A stretch of DNA of 64,000 nt from Kiritimatiellia bacterium (GTDB taxonomy: Bacteria > Verrucomicrobiota > Kiritimatiellia > PWTM01), in the NCBI GenBank assembly GCA_026417735.1, contig JAOACR010000020.1, positions 62,001-126,000 of the forward strand, read 5' to 3'. The notes under the pieces were generated by a model. That model was not told where the DNA came from, searched no databases, and saw only the letters and a list, made by a program, of their open reading frames with translations. Position numbers and translations under genes: made by a program. Below are positions 5,800-14,295 of the stretch, in pieces. The stretch's first letter is position 1, and the number at the start of each line of letters is the position of its first letter.

Positions 5800-8316
5800 T
5801 CAGCGGGTCGAAATGCTGACGAGTCGTCCCGGCACTACGACGACCCGGCGGACCTCCGCGCCCTCGATCCACTTCGCCACCTGCGGATGCGCGAGCGCCT
5901 CGGCCTCGATCGCTTTCGCGTCCGCACCCGCGCTGACGCGGATCCGTCCTCGCACCCGCCCGTTCACCTGCAGCGCGATCTCCACCTCCTCGCGCCGCAT
6001 CGCGGATGGATCCGCCTCGGGCCAGCGCGCCCGCAGCACGCTCTCCCCGTGTCCGAGCTCCCGCCAAAGCTCCTCGGCGATGTGCGGTGCAAAGGGCGAA
6101 AGCATCAGCACCAGCGCCTCCATCGCCTCCCGGTACACCGCCCGCCGCGACGCGGAGGTGTTCGGATCCACCCCAAACCGCTCCACCGCGTTGAACAGCT
6201 CCATCAGCGCCGCAATCGCGGTGTTGAACCGGAACGCGCCGTCCATGTCCCGCGTAATCTTCGCGATCGTCTCGTGCAGCTTCCGGCGCAGCTCCCGCTC
6301 CTCCTCGTCAAGCTCATCCGTTGCGACCTCCAGCCCCGCCGCCGCGGCCAGCGTCGCACGCGTCTCATACACGCGCCGCCACAACCGGTTGAGAAAGCGA
6401 AACGCCCCCTCGACCGCATCATCGTTCCACTCTGCATCTTTTTCGGGTGGACCGATGAACAGCGTGTACAGCCGCAGCGTGTCCGCCCCGTACTCCCGAA
6501 TCAGCTCGTCCGGGCTGACCACATTTCCCTTCGACTTCGACATCTTGTGCAGCTGGCCGTCCGTCTCGCTGCGCTTGCAGATCATTCCCTGCGTGAACAG
6601 CGCCCGGAACGGCTCGACAAAGGAGAGATACCCAGCGTCGTGCAGCACCTTCACGATGAAGCGAGAATAGAGCAGGTGCAACACTGCATGCTCGACACCG
6701 CCGATGTACTGGTCGACCGGCAGCCACCGATCCACATCCGCCCGGTCGAACGGCCGGTCCCGCAGTCGAGGGTTGATGTACCGCAAAAAGTACCAGCACG
6801 AACACAGCCACTGCGCCAGCGTGTCTGTCTCGCGACGGCCGGGTCCGCCGCACCGCGGGCACACGGTGCGCACAAAACCCTCGTGCGCGGCGAGCGGATT
6901 GCCCTGCTCGATCCGGAAGTCGACGTCGTCGGGCAGCCGCACCGGCAGCTCCGACTCCGGCACCGGCACCGTGCCGCACGCCGAGCAGTGCACGATCGGA
7001 ATCGGCGCCCCCCAGTAGCGCTGGCGGCTGATCAGCCAGTCCCGAATGCGGTAGGTCACCGCCGCAGCGCCGAACCCGCGCGCGGCCGCATATTCGATCA
7101 CGTCCCGCATCGCTTCCCGGTTGCCGCGCCCGCTGAACGGCCCGGAATTCGTCATCACGCCGTCCTCGACATAGGCGGCGGTCATCGCGGCCGGATCCAG
7201 ATCGCCGTCCGGCGGCCGAATCACCACCCGGATCGGCAGGCCATACCGCCGCGCGAACTCAAAGTCGCGTTGGTCATGGGCCGGCACGGCCATCACCACG
7301 CCGGTGCCGTAGTCCATCAGAACGTAGTTCGTCACCCACAGCGGCACTCGCTCGCCGGTGTACGGGTTCACCACGTGCCGGCCAGTGAACACACCCTCCT
7401 TCGGCGCGGTCTCAGCGGTCCGTTCGGCGGCGGGAATCGTCCGCTGCCGCTCCGCAAACCGCAGCACCTCCGCCTCGCACGAAGAACCTCGCACCACCTT
7501 CGCCAGCAGTGGATGCTCCGGCGCAATCGCGACGAACGTGACGCCGTAGATCGTGTCCGGACGCGTCGTGAACACCGGGCAGGCATCCCCCGTCTCCGCA
7601 ATCCGAAACTCGATCCGCGCGCCCTCCGACCGGCCGATCCAGTGCGCCTGCATCGCGCGCACGCGCTCCGGCCATCGGTCCAGCAGCGCCAGGTCATCCA
7701 GCAGACGCTGCGCGTACTCGGTGATCTTGAAGAACCACTGCTCGAGCTCGCGCTTGCGCACCGGCCGCCCGCAGCGGTCGCAAGTGCCGTCTGGCCGAAC
7801 CTCCTCGTTCGCGAGCGTCGTGCAAAAATCGCACCAGTTCACCGGCGCGAGCTTCCGATAGGCCAACCCGCGCTCGTACAGCTTCAGAAAAATCCATTGC
7901 GTCCACTTGTAGTATTCCGGATGACAGGTGGCGATCTCGCGCGACCAGTCGTAACCCACACCCCAGCTACGGATCTGTCGCTTCATCTGCGCGATGTTGG
8001 AGAGCGTCCAGTCCCGTGGATGCACGCCCCGGCTCTTTGCCGCGTTTTCCGCCGGCAGCCCGAACGCATCCCAGCCCATCGGTGTCAGCACCCTCCAGCC
8101 GCGCATCATCTGGTAGCGCGCAACCGCATCGCCGATGATGTAGTTGCGCCCGTGCCCGACATGCAGCGTCCCGGACGGATACGGGAACATCACCAAGCAA
8201 TAGAACTTCCGCGTGCTGTCGGAGGTATCGACGCGGAACGCCCCCGTCTGCTCCCAGTACGCCTGCCAGCGCGCCTCGATCTCCGCAAAATTGTACTTTT
8301 CGTTCATACCACCCAT
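5800..8316 (-). CDS. leuS: Leucyl-tRNA synthetase
   Basis: LeuRS charges tRNA-Leu with leucine in the cytoplasm. The 838-residue protein has the class I signature as [15 protein letters not shown] near residues 43-57 and [10 protein letters not shown] at about 575-585. Between them are the large CP1 editing domain ([19 protein letters not shown] and the DQRDFEF region) and a [15 protein letters not shown] segment. Cysteine pairs (CDFC, CDRC, CSAC, CPRC) suggest bound zinc in the CP1 and connecting regions. The C-terminal anticodon-binding and LeuRS-specific domains are complete. An alternative ATG lies 9 bases inside (8307). The gene is divergent from the antiporter operon and heads a minus-strand group with the small membrane protein and aguA. 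Confidence 0.97.
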
Positions 8317-8468: not shown

Positions 8469-8969
8469 ATGCACGCGAACCGGCTGCGTACAGCGGTACT
8501 GACCGCGCTCTGTCTGGCGGGTTGGGTCGCAGTCACCCGCGATCTCCATCCGGCCTCGCTCGCCGGCGCCGCGGCCATGGCGCTGGTCGCTGCACTCTTC
8601 GCCGCCCCGGTCTTTTATGAGGACAGCCCACTCGCCGGGCTCCGGCCCCGACCCGCGCTCGTCGCGCTCCCAGCACTGCTGCTGGTGCTGCTCTGGGAGG
8701 GCTACCGCGCGGGCATCGAGCTGATCGTGCGAATGTTGTCCGGCCGCTACCGGCCCGGCGTGGTCCGGCTCCGCACCCGTCTGCGCTCCCGACTCGGCCA
8801 AACCTTGCTCGCGAACTCGATCAACCTGGTGCCCGGTACCATCACCCTCTGGGCCCGCGACCGCCGGCTGTATGTGCACTGGTTCAACGTCGCCAGCCGC
8901 CACTCTATCCACGCGGGCCGCATCATCAAGGCACGCATCGAGCGGCTGCTTGAACGGACCGTCGGATGA
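8469..8969 (+). CDS. mnhE: Mrp/Mbh-type cation/proton antiporter subunit E
   Basis: This is a 166-residue membrane protein of the MnhE/MrpE (MbhA) family, an accessory subunit of multi-subunit monovalent cation/proton antiporters. It has two or three N-terminal hydrophobic helices, then the family's conserved cytoplasmic part: YRAGIELIVRMLSGRYRPGVV, LLANSINLVPGTITLW, and a C-terminal basic helix. The ATG at 8469 begins a normal hydrophobic N-terminus; a longer frame upstream reads as low-complexity Arg/Pro and was not used. It is the first gene of a ten-gene operon in which nearly every stop overlaps the next start. Confidence 0.88.
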   Translation: MHANRLRTAVLTALCLAGWVAVTRDLHPASLAGAAAMALVAALFAAPVFYEDSPLAGLRPRPALVALPALLLVLLWEGYRAGIELIVRMLSGRYRPGVVRLRTRLRSRLGQTLLANSINLVPGTITLWARDRRLYVHWFNVASRHSIHAGRIIKARIERLLERTVG

Positions 8970-9226
8970 ACTGGACACTGCCCGTGCTGATGATCGGTAC
9001 GCTGCTGAGCCTGGTGCGGATGTTCGCGGGCCCCACGCTGTGGGACCGCGTGATCTCGCTGCAGCTGGTCTCCGTGCACGTCGTGCTGGCCATGTGCCTG
9101 TTCGCGGTCGAGCATGGGCGCCCCTTCTATCTTGATGTCGCCGCGGTCTATGCGCTGCTGTCGTTCGCGGAAACTGTCGCGTTCGCCCGTCTCTGGGCGA
9201 CGCCCGGGCAGGAGCCTCCCCGATGA
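8966..9226 (+). CDS. mnhF: Mrp/Mbh-type antiporter subunit F
   Basis: This 86-residue protein with three hydrophobic helices is of the MnhF/MrpF (MbhB) family. The family motif is seen as RMFAGPTLWDRVISLQL near residues 18-34, where other members have RGPTxPDRVVALD. The start overlaps the mnhE stop (ATGA), as expected for stoichiometric expression of antiporter subunits. It ends with a short charged tail whose stop overlaps mnhG. Confidence 0.9.
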   Translation: MNWTLPVLMIGTLLSLVRMFAGPTLWDRVISLQLVSVHVVLAMCLFAVEHGRPFYLDVAAVYALLSFAETVAFARLWATPGQEPPR

Positions 9227-9513
9227 GCACCGCGATCATCGCAGCGGGGCTCGCGCTGGTGCTGTTCGGCGCGCTGGGCACCGTGTTGCTGCCCGACCTC
9301 TACCTGCGGCTGCACGCCTCCACGAAATGCGGGGTCACCGGCGCGGCGACGGTGCTGCTGGGTCTTGCTGCGCGCGCGCCCAGCGTGGACGCCGCCGCGC
9401 GACTGGTGCTGATCGTCGTGCTGATCTTCGCAACTGCACCGATGATTCCGCACATCATCGCCGTCGCGCACGCTGCCGGGCGGCACGACGACGCCGAGGG
9501 GCCTTCGCCATGA
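9223..9513 (+). CDS. mnhG: Mrp/Mbh-type antiporter subunit G
   Basis: This 96-residue protein with three helices is of the MnhG/MrpG (MbhC) family. It shows the diagnostic LPDLYLRLHASTKCGVTGAA stretch (family: FPDxYtRLHAxTKxxTlG) at about residues 23-42, followed by a hydrophobic hairpin and APMIPHIIAVAHA, where other members have aPvaaHaiaRAA. It overlaps both neighbours by four bases (ATGA). Confidence 0.92.
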   Translation: MSTAIIAAGLALVLFGALGTVLLPDLYLRLHASTKCGVTGAATVLLGLAARAPSVDAAARLVLIVVLIFATAPMIPHIIAVAHAAGRHDDAEGPSP

Positions 9514-9749
9514 GCCCCCGCGACATCGCGCTCACGCTGATGGCGCTGATGGCCGCGGTGGTGGTGTTCGCCCGCAAGCTGGTGCACGCGGTGATCGGCC
9601 TCAGCCTCTTCAGCACCATCCTCACGCTCCAGTACCTCTGGCTGCACGCGCCGGACGTCGCGATGACGGAGGCCGCGCTGGGCGCAGGCCTCTCGACGAT
9701 CGTCTTTCTCGTTGCGCTCCAGCGCGCCGGAGGCAACTCCGATGGTTGA
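9510..9749 (+). CDS. DUF4040 / MbhD-like antiporter subunit (MrpA C-terminal fragment as a separate gene)
   Basis: This 79-residue protein has two or three helices. The segments VVVFARKLVHAVIGLSLFS and LHAPDVAMTEAALGAGLSTIVFL match the DUF4040 domain that lies in the C-terminal part of MrpA and forms the stand-alone MbhD subunit of membrane-bound hydrogenases. The conserved acidic DVAxTEAAVG motif is present (DVAMTEAALG). Its start overlaps mnhG (ATGA) and its stop overlaps the EIIA-like gene. No NuoL-like MrpA body is encoded anywhere in the window. Confidence 0.88.
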   Translation: MSPRDIALTLMALMAAVVVFARKLVHAVIGLSLFSTILTLQYLWLHAPDVAMTEAALGAGLSTIVFLVALQRAGGNSDG

Positions 9750-10164
9750 GTGGCGCGACTATCTGGTCCGCGCGCAAATCCTGCGGCTTCCACCCGCCGC
9801 GCGCGAAGTTCTCTTCGAACGCCTGATCGCGGCCGCCTGCGGACCAGGCGCGGCAACACCCCGCCCGCGCGCCGCGGAACTGCGCGAGCAGACGATCAGC
9901 CCCGGCGTCGTGCTCGTGCACGCCCGCCGCGATGACCTTGACCGTATCCGCCTCTCGATGGGCTTGCTGGTCCCGCCCGCCTCCCTCGGTCACGGCGCAC
10001 CCGTCCACGCGCTGGTCTGCGCACTGATCCCCGAACCTCGCAGTCGCGAGTACCTCACGCTGCTCGCGCGCCTCAGCCGGTTGCTCGCCGCCCCCTCCGG
10101 CTCCGCCGCGTTTCGCTCCGGCGAGCCGGACCGCGTCGCCACCGAACTCGGTCTGGCCCCGTGA
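9742..10164 (+). CDS. PTS EIIA (type 2, PtsN-like) domain protein
   Basis: This 140-residue cytoplasmic protein has the order of a type-2 EIIA domain: an N-terminal helix pair (REVLFERLIAAAC), then ISPGVVLVHARRDDL at about 63-77. The His corresponds to the phosphorylated His of AIPHAR in PtsN and fructose EIIA. Later VHALVCALIPEPRSREYLTLLARLSRLL matches the family's final beta-alpha unit. The ATG at 9742 has GGAGG upstream. It lies inside the antiporter operon and overlaps the DUF4040 gene, so it is presumably a regulator or sensor of antiporter activity rather than a sugar transporter component. No EIIB or EIIC gene is present. Confidence 0.75.
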   Translation: MVEWRDYLVRAQILRLPPAAREVLFERLIAAACGPGAATPRPRAAELREQTISPGVVLVHARRDDLDRIRLSMGLLVPPASLGHGAPVHALVCALIPEPRSREYLTLLARLSRLLAAPSGSAAFRSGEPDRVATELGLAP

Positions 10165-10177
10165 GCAGAGGTGTCCG

Positions 10178-10516
10178 ATGCTGCTGCTGCTGATCCTCAA
10201 GGACGAACGGCGGATCGAAACCGTCGTCAACGCGCTGATCGAGCTCGGTTTGTTCGATGCCACCATTCTGGACGGCGAGGCGGTCGAAAACCTCGCGACG
10301 CAGACCCTTCCCCTCTTTGCGGATGTAGGCCGGTGGTTCGGACACAATCTCGCGTACCACCGCGCGCTGCTGATCGTGCTCCCCGAGCGCCGTGCGGCCG
10401 AGGAATTTGTCGACCTTTGCGCGCGCGACGGGTTGAACCTGCGGGACCCGCAGGTCGCGGTGATGGCGCTGATCCCCGCCGAACCTTTTCCTCCGCGCGG
10501 AGAACCATTGGGATGA
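10178..10516 (+). CDS. PII-like regulatory protein
   Basis: This 112-residue protein begins with a beta strand (MLLLLILKDERRIETVVNAL) followed by a helix and ELGLFDATILDGEAVENLA, the beta-alpha-beta start typical of GlnB/PII-like trimeric regulators. The middle segment, in place of a canonical T-loop, lacks the uridylylatable Tyr of GlnB. The second half (RALLIVLPERRAAEEFVDLC) forms the second beta-alpha unit. It lies 13 bases after the EIIA-like gene and overlaps the MnhB gene. This suggests the pair senses metabolic state and modulates the antiporter. The fold is inferred from sequence pattern; ligand and target are unknown. Confidence 0.65.
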   Translation: MLLLLILKDERRIETVVNALIELGLFDATILDGEAVENLATQTLPLFADVGRWFGHNLAYHRALLIVLPERRAAEEFVDLCARDGLNLRDPQVAVMALIPAEPFPPRGEPLG

Positions 10517-10929
10517 TTGACCTTCGCGACTCTCCGCCGCTGGACACGACGCTCCGGCTGCTGTTCCCCTTCGTGCTGGTGTTCAGTTTCCAGTTGTTTT
10601 CGTATGGCGCGAACTCGCCCGGCGGCGGTTTCCAGGCAGGTGTCGCATTCGGAACGATCGTCGTCGTGCTGGACCTCGTCTGGCGTCGCCGCGCCTATCC
10701 CGACCGTATCTTCGAGCGGATGGAGCTGGCGGGTCTGCTGCTGCTGGGCGGACTTCTCCTCGCCGGCTGGCTTCGCACCGGCCGCCCCTTCCCCGACCCG
10801 GCCGCCTGGACCGGGCCGGGACTGCTGTTCTCCAACATTCAGATGTGGTCGCTGAACCTCGCCATCTTCTTGGAGGTCGCCGGTTCGATCGTGCTGATTG
10901 TGCGCCGGTTGCGGGAGCCGGGGAAATGA
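10513..10929 (+). CDS. mnhB: Mrp/Mbh-type antiporter subunit B (MnhB domain)
   Basis: This 138-residue protein with four predicted helices is of the MnhB/MrpB (MbhF) family. It contains the family signature FVLVFSFQLFSYGANSPGGG followed by FQAGVAFGTIVVVL at about residues 20-53, where other members read lYihxhGhxSPGGGFqGG. A C-terminal hydrophobic helix follows IQMWSLNLAIFLEVAGSIVL. It overlaps the PII-like gene upstream (ATGA) and the MbhE-like gene downstream. Confidence 0.9.
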   Translation: MIDLRDSPPLDTTLRLLFPFVLVFSFQLFSYGANSPGGGFQAGVAFGTIVVVLDLVWRRRAYPDRIFERMELAGLLLLGGLLLAGWLRTGRPFPDPAAWTGPGLLFSNIQMWSLNLAIFLEVAGSIVLIVRRLREPGK

Positions 10930-11180
10930 ACGGCGCTCGCACACGAACGATCACCGCCGCACTCGTGGTGGGGTTGGCCCTGTTGGCATGGCGGGCCGCT
11001 CCCCCCGATGTGGCCCCGCCCGCGCACGCGACCGCCGAGGTCGCCGCGCTCGCCCGCCGATGGAACATCCGCAACCTCGTCACCGCGATCTACCTCGGTC
11101 CGCGCGCGGCCGACACCTTTCTGGAAGTCATGGTGGTGACGCTGGCGGTCGTCGGCCTGCGGGCGCTCGGAGAACCGTGA
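10926..11180 (+). CDS. MbhE-like antiporter subunit (MrpA C-terminal domain as a separate gene)
   Basis: This 84-residue protein has an N-terminal helix, a short loop, and a second helix. NLVTAIYLGPRAADTFLEVMV at residues 51-71 corresponds to the N-x-V-T-x-I-L-x-D-x-R-x-x-D-T-x-x-E motif of the MrpA C-terminus and of hydrogenase subunit MbhE; here the Asp before the Arg is replaced. Start and stop both overlap neighbours. With the DUF4040 gene it supplies, as two separate polypeptides, the two C-terminal pieces of MrpA. Confidence 0.78.
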   Translation: MNGARTRTITAALVVGLALLAWRAAPPDVAPPAHATAEVAALARRWNIRNLVTAIYLGPRAADTFLEVMVVTLAVVGLRALGEP

Positions 11181-11491
11181 TGAGCGTGCTCATCATCGCA
11201 CTGGCGCTCTATGGCTTCATCGCCTCGGACCATCTGGTCCGCAAGGTGATGTGCATCGCCCTGATCGAAAGCACGATCATCCTCGCCTTTCTCGATGCGG
11301 GCTACGCGGCGCGCGGTCGCGCACCGATTCTCGATCCCGCCGCCGAAATCGCGATGGTGGACCCGCTCCCGCAGGCGCTGATGCTCACCGCGATCGTGAT
11401 CGGAGTTTGTTTCAATGCGCTCGCGCTGGCGCTGATCGTTCGCGTCGGGCGTCAGCGTGGCACCATGTCCGGCTCGCAGCTGCATGACTGA
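11180..11491 (+). CDS. mnhC: Mrp/Mbh-type antiporter subunit C (NuoK-like)
   Basis: This 103-residue, three-helix protein of the MnhC/MrpC/NuoK family is part of the proton/cation path. It contains LVRKVMCIALIESTIILAFL at about 18-37, DPLPQALMLTAIVIGVCFNA at about 62-81 (family DPlpQALvLTAIVIgfa), and a final helix. The ATG overlaps the previous stop by one base and the stop overlaps mnhD. Confidence 0.92.
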   Translation: MSVLIIALALYGFIASDHLVRKVMCIALIESTIILAFLDAGYAARGRAPILDPAAEIAMVDPLPQALMLTAIVIGVCFNALALALIVRVGRQRGTMSGSQLHD

Positions 11492-12986
11492 CCCGCGCCT
11501 GCTGACCGCGTTCCCACTGGTACCCCTGTTTGGCGTGATCGCGGCGCTGGCGGCGTCGATGGGCGGCCGCGACATCACGCGGTGCGTCGTCCGCATCACC
11601 GCCGCGCTGCAGGGGGCCGTGGGCCTCGCGCTGGCCGTCGGCGCGTGGCGGCACGGCGAAATTCGCCTGGCCCTCGGTGACACGGTGCTGGCGATCGAAT
11701 TCGCGTTTGGTGCCGACCGGATCCCGTTGCTGTCCGCCTATCTGCTGCCGCTGGGGGCGGCCGCCGCCCGCGCGGGGGACCTGGCCTCGCCCGCGATGCG
11801 GTTGCTGCTGCTGCTCTACCTCGGTGGCTGCAGCGGCCTGATCGTCACCGCGGACCTCTTCAATTTTTTCGTGTTCTACGAGCTGATGATGATGGCCGCC
11901 TACGTGCTGGTCGGCGCAAAAGGCAGCCTGTACGCGTCGGTGAAGTACATGCTCTTCGGCGCGCTGAGCTCGTCGCTGCTGCTCGGCGGCATCGTGCTGC
12001 TCTACGCGACCGGCGCCGGTTTCCGCGAGCCGCTCGACCCGGCGTTCCTCGCCGCGGAGCCGCTGCAGCAACGCTGGACCCTGCTGCTGCTGGCCAGCGC
12101 GTTCCTGATGAAGAGCGCGTTCGTCCCCGCCTGGACATGGGTCGCCACCTGTCACGCCGCCACCGTAACGCCCGTCTCCGCACTGCTCGGCTCCTACACC
12201 CTGATGGCCGGCCTCTACGGTCTGCAGACCCGTGTGCTCGCGCCCGCCGCCGCAGCGGTATTGCAGGATCTGTTTGGCTGGATCGAAGCACTGTCCATCG
12301 CGACGGTGTCGATCCCGAGTCTCTTCGTGCTCGTCGAGGCGGAGCCCAAGCGCTGCGTCGCGGCCTCGTCCGTCGTCGCGGCCGGCTTTGTCGGCTGGCT
12401 GATGGCACGTGGCCGCGCAACGGAGGCCATGCTGTTGATCGCGGTTCACGCAGCGGGGAAGACGCTGATGTTTTACGCGCTTGACGGAATGCAGCCGGAG
12501 GGGCGCGTGATCGCGCTGCGACGCCGCGCCGCGGTGGTGTTCGTCATCGGCACCATGCTGGCGGTCGGCCTGTTTCCCACGCCGGTCGGCGTCTGGAAAA
12601 GTGGGCTCGCCGACACGCTGCCGGCAACGATCATCGTCAGCACCGCAACGGTGCTGACGCTCGCTGGCCTGTTGAAGTTCGGTATTCGGCGGGGTGGCCA
12701 GCCACCGTCCGCCGGGCTGCTCGCCGCCGCGCTGGTCGCGCTCGCGGCCGCGACCGCCGCGGCGGCCGGCGCGGGCCTGCTCGCACGACCGCTGCCCAAA
12801 CTGATCGCGGACGCGATCGCGATTGCGGCCGCACTGCCGCTCGCGCGCCAGCTGAATCGGCTTGACGCCGCCTGGAGCCCGCAGTGGCGCCGCCGCCCCT
12901 ACCCCCACCTGAACGCCGAGCTGCTCGGCGCCGCGACGCTGCTGGCCACCGGCGCCATTTGGCTCATTCTGCCGTACGCCCGATGA
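11484..12986 (+). CDS. mnhD: Mrp/Mbh-type antiporter subunit D (NuoN/MbhH-like ion pump)
   Basis: This 500-residue polytopic protein of about 14 helices is the only large antiporter-like subunit in the operon. Conserved elements include DLFNFFVFYELMMMAAYVLV (the FVxfElm helix with a buried Glu), KYMLFGALSSSLLL, a Lys-bearing helix at AFLMKSAFVPAWTWVATCHA (family KaAlfPlH.WLPdAHa), and a later VHAAGKTLMFYALDGM. It is expected to translocate protons or Na+ in the cytoplasmic membrane. The N-terminal ATG at 11484 lies within the end of mnhC, an eight-base overlap. It is the last gene of the operon; glgC follows 70 bases later. Confidence 0.9.
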   Translation: MTDPRLLTAFPLVPLFGVIAALAASMGGRDITRCVVRITAALQGAVGLALAVGAWRHGEIRLALGDTVLAIEFAFGADRIPLLSAYLLPLGAAAARAGDLASPAMRLLLLLYLGGCSGLIVTADLFNFFVFYELMMMAAYVLVGAKGSLYASVKYMLFGALSSSLLLGGIVLLYATGAGFREPLDPAFLAAEPLQQRWTLLLLASAFLMKSAFVPAWTWVATCHAATVTPVSALLGSYTLMAGLYGLQTRVLAPAAAAVLQDLFGWIEALSIATVSIPSLFVLVEAEPKRCVAASSVVAAGFVGWLMARGRATEAMLLIAVHAAGKTLMFYALDGMQPEGRVIALRRRAAVVFVIGTMLAVGLFPTPVGVWKSGLADTLPATIIVSTATVLTLAGLLKFGIRRGGQPPSAGLLAAALVALAAATAAAAGAGLLARPLPKLIADAIAIAAALPLARQLNRLDAAWSPQWRRRPYPHLNAELLGAATLLATGAIWLILPYAR

Positions 12987-13056
12987 ATGCGCCGCACCAT
13001 TGACACCGCGCAGCGCGGCCGTCATCCTGTTCCCGGGACCTGAGAGGCGGCTTCCA

Positions 13057-14295
13057 ATGAACGTCGTGTGCGTGATCATGGGCGGCGGCGCAGGCACGCG
13101 GCTTCAGCCGCTCACCCGCGACCGCGCGAAGCCCGCGGTGCCGATCGGCGGCAAGTACCGACTGGTCGACATCCCAATCAGCAACTGCCTGAACAGCCGG
13201 CTGCGCCGGATCTATCTGCTGACGCAGTACAACAGCGTTTCGCTGCACGAGCACGTCGCCAACACCTACCAGTTCGACCAGTTCCACCGCGGCTTCGTCC
13301 GCATCATCGCCGCGCAGCAGACGCCCGACTCGGAATCCTGGTACGAGGGCACCGCTGACGCGGTGCGAAAGTCGTTCCGCTACTTCATGGACGAGTCGCC
13401 CGACCTTATCCTCGTGCTCTCCGGCGACCAGCTCTACCGAATGGACTTCCAAAAGGTGATCGAACAGCACGTCGCAAACCGGGCCGACGTGACGATCGCG
13501 ACCAAACCCGTCCCCCGCTCGGAGGCGGGCGCGCTCGGGATCATGCAGGTCGGACCGCATAACCGTATCCTTCGCTTCGTCGAGAAACCCGGCGACACCC
13601 CGCTGCTCGACGAGTTGCGCGCCCCGATGTACAGCGAGGAGCGTTACCTCGCCAGCATGGGCATCTACGTGTTCAACCGACCGGTGCTGCAGGAGCTGCT
13701 CGCCGACCCCGAGCGCACCGACTTTGGCAAGCACATCATCCCGGCCGCGATCGACCGCTTCAACGTGCACAGCTTCATCTTCGAAGGGTACTGGCGCGAC
13801 ATCGGAACCATCGGTGCCTTCTGGGAGGCAAACCTCGAGCTCACCGAACCGCGGCCGCCCTTCTCCTTCTACGAGCCCCGCGCGCCGATTTACACTCATA
13901 TGCGGTTCCTCCCCTCCTCAAAGATCAACTGCTGCGACCTCAACCGCACGTTGCTGGCGGAGGGCTGCATCATCAGCGGTCACCGTATCCTGCACTCGAT
14001 CATCGGTGTGCGCGCGGTGATCGGCGAGGGTACCGTGATCGAACACTCGGTCATCATGGGCGCCGACTACTACGAGCACGAGCGCGATCCCGCCCCCGCC
14101 TCCCCCCGCCTCGGCATCGGACGCGACTGCTTCATCCGCAATGCGATCGTGGACAAAAACGCCCGAATCGGCGACGGCGCCTACATCTCCCCGGACGGCA
14201 AACCCGATGGCACCGTCACCCCACAGTACACCGTCCGCGACGGCGTGATCGTGATTCCGAAAAACACCGTGATTCCCCCCGGCACGCGGCTGTGA
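13057..14295 (+). CDS. glgC: Glucose-1-phosphate adenylyltransferase
   Basis: GlgC makes ADP-glucose from ATP and glucose-1-phosphate for glycogen synthesis. The 412-residue protein begins with the nucleotide-binding GGGAGTRLQPLTRDRAKPAV and continues with IGGKYRLVDIPISNCLNS, YEGTADAVRKS, LSGDQLYRMD and FVEKPGDTP. The C-terminal half has hexapeptide repeats of a left-handed beta helix. The ATG at 13057 follows GAGAGGCGG. It overlaps folB by four bases (GTGA), an unexpected pairing that suggests shared expression rather than shared pathway. The regulatory N-terminal Arg/Lys context resembles bacterial enzymes; its effectors cannot be told from sequence. Confidence 0.96.
   Translation: MNVVCVIMGGGAGTRLQPLTRDRAKPAVPIGGKYRLVDIPISNCLNSRLRRIYLLTQYNSVSLHEHVANTYQFDQFHRGFVRIIAAQQTPDSESWYEGTADAVRKSFRYFMDESPDLILVLSGDQLYRMDFQKVIEQHVANRADVTIATKPVPRSEAGALGIMQVGPHNRILRFVEKPGDTPLLDELRAPMYSEERYLASMGIYVFNRPVLQELLADPERTDFGKHIIPAAIDRFNVHSFIFEGYWRDIGTIGAFWEANLELTEPRPPFSFYEPRAPIYTHMRFLPSSKINCCDLNRTLLAEGCIISGHRILHSIIGVRAVIGEGTVIEHSVIMGADYYEHERDPAPASPRLGIGRDCFIRNAIVDKNARIGDGAYISPDGKPDGTVTPQYTVRDGVIVIPKNTVIPPGTRL

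Follow-up and report, generated by a model that had tools for sequence, protein, structure and literature searches.

The operon and its membrane module

Within a 64,000-nucleotide stretch of a Kiritimatiellia bacterium genome (contig JAOACR010000020.1, positions 62,001 to 126,000; hereafter the window), we analysed an operon of ten co-directional genes at positions 8469-12986 of the plus strand, in which the genes of a Mrp/Mbh-type membrane module enclose those of two soluble proteins, one EIIA-like and one PII-like. The order MnhE, F, G, MbhD, EIIA, PII-like, MnhB, MbhE, MnhC, and MnhD, read from the letters alone in a first-pass annotation of this DNA, was borne out by gene coordinates and family matches. 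Eight of the nine gene junctions are overlaps of 1-8 nucleotides (nt), the exception being a 13-nt gap between the EIIA and PII-like genes. The ten genes, with the matches that identify them, are as follows.

8469-8969, plus strand: MnhE/MrpE/MbhA-like subunit; PF01899 (MNHE), 3.6e-29
8966-9226, plus strand: MnhF/MrpF/MbhB-like subunit; PF04066 (MrpF), 1e-16; 4-nt overlap with MnhE
9223-9513, plus strand: MnhG/MrpG/MbhC-like subunit; PF03334, 1e-17; 4-nt overlap with MnhF
9510-9749, plus strand: MbhD-like subunit (DUF4040; first part of the MrpA C-terminus); PF13244 (MbhD), 2e-19; 4-nt overlap with MnhG
9742-10164, plus strand: EIIA(Ntr)-fold regulator; PF00359 (PTS_EIIA_2), 3.4e-4; structural model and alignment
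10178-10516, plus strand: PII-like protein; structural matches and a profile match to exchanger-linked PII-like domains
10513-10929, plus strand: MnhB/MrpB/MbhF-like subunit; PF04039, 1.3e-19; 4-nt overlap with the PII-like gene
10926-11180, plus strand: MbhE-like subunit (second part of the MrpA C-terminus); MbhE portion of NCBIfam PRK12567 models, core motif kept in relatives
11180-11491, plus strand: MnhC/MrpC/MbhG-like subunit; PF00420 (Oxidored_q2), 2.4e-19; NCBIfam subunit C, 9.1e-24
11484-12986, plus strand: MnhD/MrpD/MbhH-like antiporter subunit; PF00361 (Proton_antipo_M), 4.4e-22

Homologues of MrpB, C, D, E, F, and G thus all lie within one operon (Pfam/NCBIfam), and the first-pass equation of the membrane set with MbhA-H held, since eight homologous subunits were matched, though the MbhE-like subunit was recognised only weakly, by the section of fused subunit-B models that covers MbhE (best 1.8e-6). 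A profile of 10 operon copies of MnhD matched the solved structures of MbhH (6cfw_H, 1.7e-34) and MbsH (6u8y_H, 7.8e-34) more closely than those of MrpD (3e-22 and weaker), and its charged residues E133, K154, K210, and K372 were invariant in the 10 copies.

The window's genome (96.8% complete) encodes exactly one Proton_antipo_M protein, the operon's own MnhD, so that this search returned no MrpA/NuoL N-terminal antiporter body of the kind that defines a canonical Mrp. One such protein each was also found in two further genomes (G001 and G008) and in Candidatus Muiribacterium halophilum (G308). The complex-I/hydrogenase large subunit (PF00346) was detected in 0 of 7 genomes of the window's family, with the controls giving matches in 11 of 14, a search that did not extend to soluble NiFe hydrogenases of other families. 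These results agree with the earlier claims that the module has neither a MrpA/NuoL body nor a hydrogenase gene, and no NuoL-type subunit encoded elsewhere came to light. Two other genomes of the same family each encode an additional Proton_antipo_M protein outside the operon (G002:C52, locus L070; G005:C140, locus L069). We considered whether the window's genome might hide a partner of the MrpA/NuoL or complex-I/hydrogenase kind at another site and dismissed this, given the single Proton_antipo_M match and the absence of PF00346 within the limit just named.

The claim that the system is distinct from Mrp did not survive. Mrp systems without MrpA are already known as 'Group 3' Mrp, defined by that absence, and a stand-alone example exists in Pyrococcus furiosus (PMC8415708). 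Because MrpA is absent, the Proton_antipo_M protein is alone, and no large subunit was found, the membrane part fits this group and, judged by its sequence, is a Group 3 Mrp, a known kind and no new transporter class. Its eight subunits are predicted to form a cation/H+ antiporter, probably exchanging Na+ or K+ for H+.

Among known systems, the operon is close to the P. furiosus stand-alone Group 3 Mrp (mrpEFGBB'CD; PMC8415708), which likewise has E, F, and G followed by an MbhD-type part, B, C, and D, with one MrpD, no MrpA, and no redox genes. The P. furiosus MrpB, however, fuses MbhD and MbhE, and its operon is described with mrp genes only, whereas the window has a gene each for MbhD and MbhE, the latter coming after MnhB, and the EIIA and PII-like genes lie inside. 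The Mbh and Mbs modules share the eight membrane subunits and, in MbhH and MbsH, the closest relatives of MnhD, but the window operon is without catalytic or NuoH-like subunits, has the regulators inserted, and places MnhB, the MbhF homologue, ahead of MbhE, whereas the lettering of Mbh runs from MbhE to MbhF. Canonical Mrp/Mnh systems (Groups 1 and 2) have the same MrpB, C, D, E, F, and G homologues and differ in the MrpA N-terminal antiporter body, which was not found in the window's genome.

EIIA-like and PII-like proteins encoded within the operon

The window EIIA scored 21 bits against PTS_EIIA_2, under the Pfam cut-off of 27, and two of its relatives passed that cut-off with 30.2 and 41.8 bits. 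Its structural model has a predicted local distance difference test score (pLDDT) of 92.3 and found its best PDB match in E. coli IIA-Ntr (1a6j; Z 16.5, root-mean-square deviation [rmsd] 2.5, 139 of 140 residues), so that the modelled protein has the EIIA-Ntr fold. Of the earlier statement that a phosphorylatable histidine is retained near residue 70, the histidine stood and the position did not, for relatives back a start at ATG 9742, which makes it residue 60 (codon 9919-9921). His60 and Arg62 were invariant in 9/9 operon EIIA copies, whose identity to the window copy is 22-72% (only 22-42% for most), and the phospho-acceptor column held histidine in all 43 aligned EIIAs, whatever their context. 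Genes for HPr and enzyme I (EI) of the phosphotransferase system (PTS) lie side by side in the window's genome. As a separate observation, the EIIA model (window positions 9742-10164) also matches, at Z of ~9-11, the regulatory domains that animal anion exchangers (band 3/AE) have in the cytoplasm, a likeness of fold to a different class of ion exchanger.

For the second soluble protein, a PDB sequence search with the operon PII profile alone gave chance matches only, and the PII assignment therefore needed fold comparison and relatives linked to Na+/H+ exchangers. The model was of moderate quality (pLDDT 75.6; predicted template-modelling score 0.66), with low confidence in the T-loop region, and its top structural matches (Foldseek, VIA) were nearly all PII or PII-like proteins such as SbtB, CPII, and GlnK. 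The window-type PII profile matched the exchanger-linked PII-like domains (probability 98.1, E 1.2e-13), which themselves matched PII structures best (E 0.018), and a related spirochaete copy came just below the cut-off of PF00543 (9.6e-5). Both the structural matches and this profile link uphold the first-pass naming of the protein as PII-like, and in its model it has the ferredoxin-like PII fold.

Conservation of the ten-gene order

The operon was complete in five genomes of the window's family, representing three genera (G000, G001, G002, G005, and G008), and its 3' part was found at a contig start in another (G003), whereas G006, a further member of that family, carries a classic Mrp operon instead, one that includes a long MrpA-like protein. 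When 84,980 species genomes were scanned by pattern, 11 window-type loci came up, of which 4 belong to the window's family, 5 are contigs of 4 spirochaete metagenome-assembled genomes (MAGs), 1 is from Ca. Sumerlaeota, and 1 is from Ca. Muiribacterium halophilum. Two loci, L078 from a spirochaete MAG and L083 from Ca. Muiribacterium halophilum, keep all ten genes in order; a second spirochaete MAG holds the two operon halves on two contigs (L081/L082), and the Ca. Sumerlaeota locus (L077) is without DUF4040 and its contig ends within MnhB.

As the genomes from the window's phylum do not overlap those of the three named phyla, the window-type operon spans four: the window's own, Spirochaetota, Ca. 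Muiribacteriota, and Ca. Sumerlaeota, the last on one truncated contig. The gene order is therefore conserved in related genomes of several phyla, as the earlier annotation had proposed to check, and the two regulators are conserved partners. Their random insertion, which we had considered, was rejected since conservation across phyla rules out chance.

The putative regulator pair beside other antiporters

The two soluble proteins also occur together beside other antiporters. Among Spirochaetota, the PII-like protein was found in 33 of 345 genomes, and EIIA adjoined it at every one of the 32 loci whose surroundings were read. Antiporter or complex-I-like subunits lay next to the pair at 28 of these 32 (17 Mrp, 10 of the PF00999 exchanger family, and 1 Hyf-like), and the other 4 had no recognised antiporter nearby. 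The 17 Mrp loci (L119-L135) have a layout of their own, with PII-EIIA upstream of MnhE-F-G-DUF4040-MbhE-MnhB-C-D; two of them, L119 and L120, have two MnhD-type proteins. At the Hyf-like locus (L143:7452-14547), the PII-like and EIIA genes are followed by genes for Hyf/complex-I-like membrane subunits, one of them of NuoH type (PF00146, 3.5e-32). Matches in the window's phylum came from 23 of 388 genomes, and 25 of the 27 loci adjoined an antiporter (5 window-type Mrp, 20 exchanger family), the remaining 2 lying at or near contig ends. Loci within one phylum are related, so these counts are not independent trials. Exchanger loci of that phylum follow the orders exchanger-EIIA-PII (EIIA and PII often fused), EIIA-exchanger-PII, and EIIA-PII-exchanger, and a single spirochaete genome (G304) carries three antiporter loci with EIIA and PII-like genes, one of window type (L078), one of upstream type (L124), and one in the order exchanger-EIIA-PII (L137).

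The antiporters paired with EIIA and PII-like proteins are thus the MrpA-less Mrp, in two operon layouts, and the Na+/H+-exchanger family, in several. In the PII-like tree (113 columns), the window type formed one clade (support 95/91), and a branch with support 98/95 set window-type Mrp, some exchanger-linked, and some free pairs against upstream-type Mrp and fused exchanger-linked ones. In the EIIA tree, the window type was again one clade (100/100) and deeper branches were weak, both trees being limited by long branches and short proteins. The trees suggest, and do not prove, that the pair came to be linked with Mrp on more than one occasion.

On balance, and with slightly more confidence than doubt, we read EIIA and the PII-like protein as a portable two-input cassette joined, apparently more than once, to unrelated cation/H+ antiporters in several phyla, through which PTS phosphorylation and a small-molecule signal would converge on one exchanger. 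The new element is this conserved, portable pair. In the open-access literature searched (most subscription journals lie outside it), we found no paper linking an EIIA or a PII-like protein to a Mrp antiporter or describing an EIIA and PII-like pair, and the other combinations sought there yielded separate precedents only.

Proposed working and alternative explanations

Taking the gene content and the comparisons together, the operon probably encodes a stand-alone MrpA-less Group 3 Mbh-type cation/H+ antiporter along with two dedicated soluble regulators that gate it, in line with the first-pass suggestion of gating by phosphorylation state and a small-molecule signal. We infer the gating from genomic association and from two precedents. 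PtsN of E. coli, when unphosphorylated, binds the K+/H+ antiporter YcgO and inhibits it (PMC11808508), which parallels the window in that an EIIA(Ntr)-fold protein with a phospho-acceptor histidine is linked, in the window by gene association, to a cation/H+ antiporter; YcgO, however, belongs to the CPA1 antiporters, has a regulatory C-terminal region of its own, and has no PII-like partner described, whereas the window EIIA gene sits inside the antiporter operon. Cyanobacterial SbtB, a member of the PII family, binds SbtA, a bicarbonate transporter coupled to Na+, and inhibits it, as GlnK does AmtB (PMC10710835), and here too a PII-like protein is tied to an ion-coupled transporter, albeit one of a different family and with no EIIA.

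In the working that we propose, phosphate would pass from phosphoenolpyruvate (PEP) through EI and HPr to His60 of EIIA, while the PII-like protein would take a small-molecule ligand, perhaps a nucleotide. Either protein, or the two together, would then bind the antiporter from its cytoplasmic side and turn exchange on or off, and Na+ (or K+)/H+ exchange would thereby track the PEP/carbon state together with a second metabolite signal. If so, carbon and energy status (PEP via the PTS) and a metabolite signal would be tied directly to Na+/K+/pH homeostasis, and some bacteria may tune their ion balance to carbon and energy state through the regulator pair. It would also offer a way into the question of how MrpA-less Mrp complexes are switched.

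Several observations weigh against this reading. PII control of transporters is apparently restricted to those able to function as trimers (review, PMC10710835), and Mrp is not known as a trimer; the energy input or driving force of stand-alone MrpA-less Mrp is itself reported as unknown (PMC8415708). The window PII-like protein had no match in Pfam, PF00543 included, and its best structural match, from the moderate model, was modest (Z 8.5, rmsd 2.8, 76 residues aligned; Foldseek E >0.01). Around His60, the GSTG...AIP motif that flanks the PtsN histidine is not kept. At two spirochaete loci (L079, 1956-2608; L080, 4121-4755), EIIA is absent, with DUF4040 followed directly by the PII-like gene and a gap too short to hold it, which suggests that the PII-like protein is the core, more constant partner of the window-type operon and that EIIA can be lost. 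Finally, EIIA-PII pairs with no recognised antiporter nearby occur in some spirochaetes and, several times, in Sumerlaeota (L136, L138, L139, L142, L186, L187, L188, and L190), and one PII-like gene (L191) has neither EIIA nor an antiporter nearby. In some genomes, then, the two proteins probably act on something else.

The antiporter-free pairs would also fit a view in which the two soluble proteins serve other targets instead of the antiporter, for example by reporting ion or pH status to the PTS, transcription, or carbon metabolism, and are merely co-expressed with it; E. coli PtsN, for its part, also acts on TrkA and KdpD (PMC13104625). We consider this unlikely, as the pair adjoins two unrelated antiporter types in several gene orders, which would be unexpected from co-expression with arbitrary targets, and E. 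coli PtsN directly inhibits an antiporter (PMC11808508). Less probable again is an EIIA that is a decaying or purely structural remnant, never phosphorylated, with the PII-like protein regulating alone. The low Pfam score and lost flanking motif of the window copy and the absence of EIIA from L079 and L080 point that way, but His60 and Arg62 have stayed invariant even though most copies share so little identity with the window's, the model gives a high-confidence IIA-Ntr fold, and EI and HPr are present in the genome. Least probable, by a narrow step, is that the membrane module is the ion-pumping arm of a redox complex with catalytic subunits encoded elsewhere and tuned by the regulators: for all that the nearest relatives of MnhD, MbhH and MbsH, belong to redox complexes, that the P. 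furiosus MrpA-less Mrp has no known energy input, and that the L143 pair lies beside Hyf/complex-I-like subunits, the 7 family genomes had no PF00346, no redox gene lay inside the operon at any locus read, and the pair also adjoins single-protein exchangers.

Flanking regions

Promoter and terminator scans gave nothing above chance. Upstream and divergent to the operon lies a long minus-strand open reading frame (ORF) at 5800-8316, which from its sequence we take to be leuS, and downstream lies a 431-codon ORF at 13000-14295, presumably glgC on the same kind of reading.

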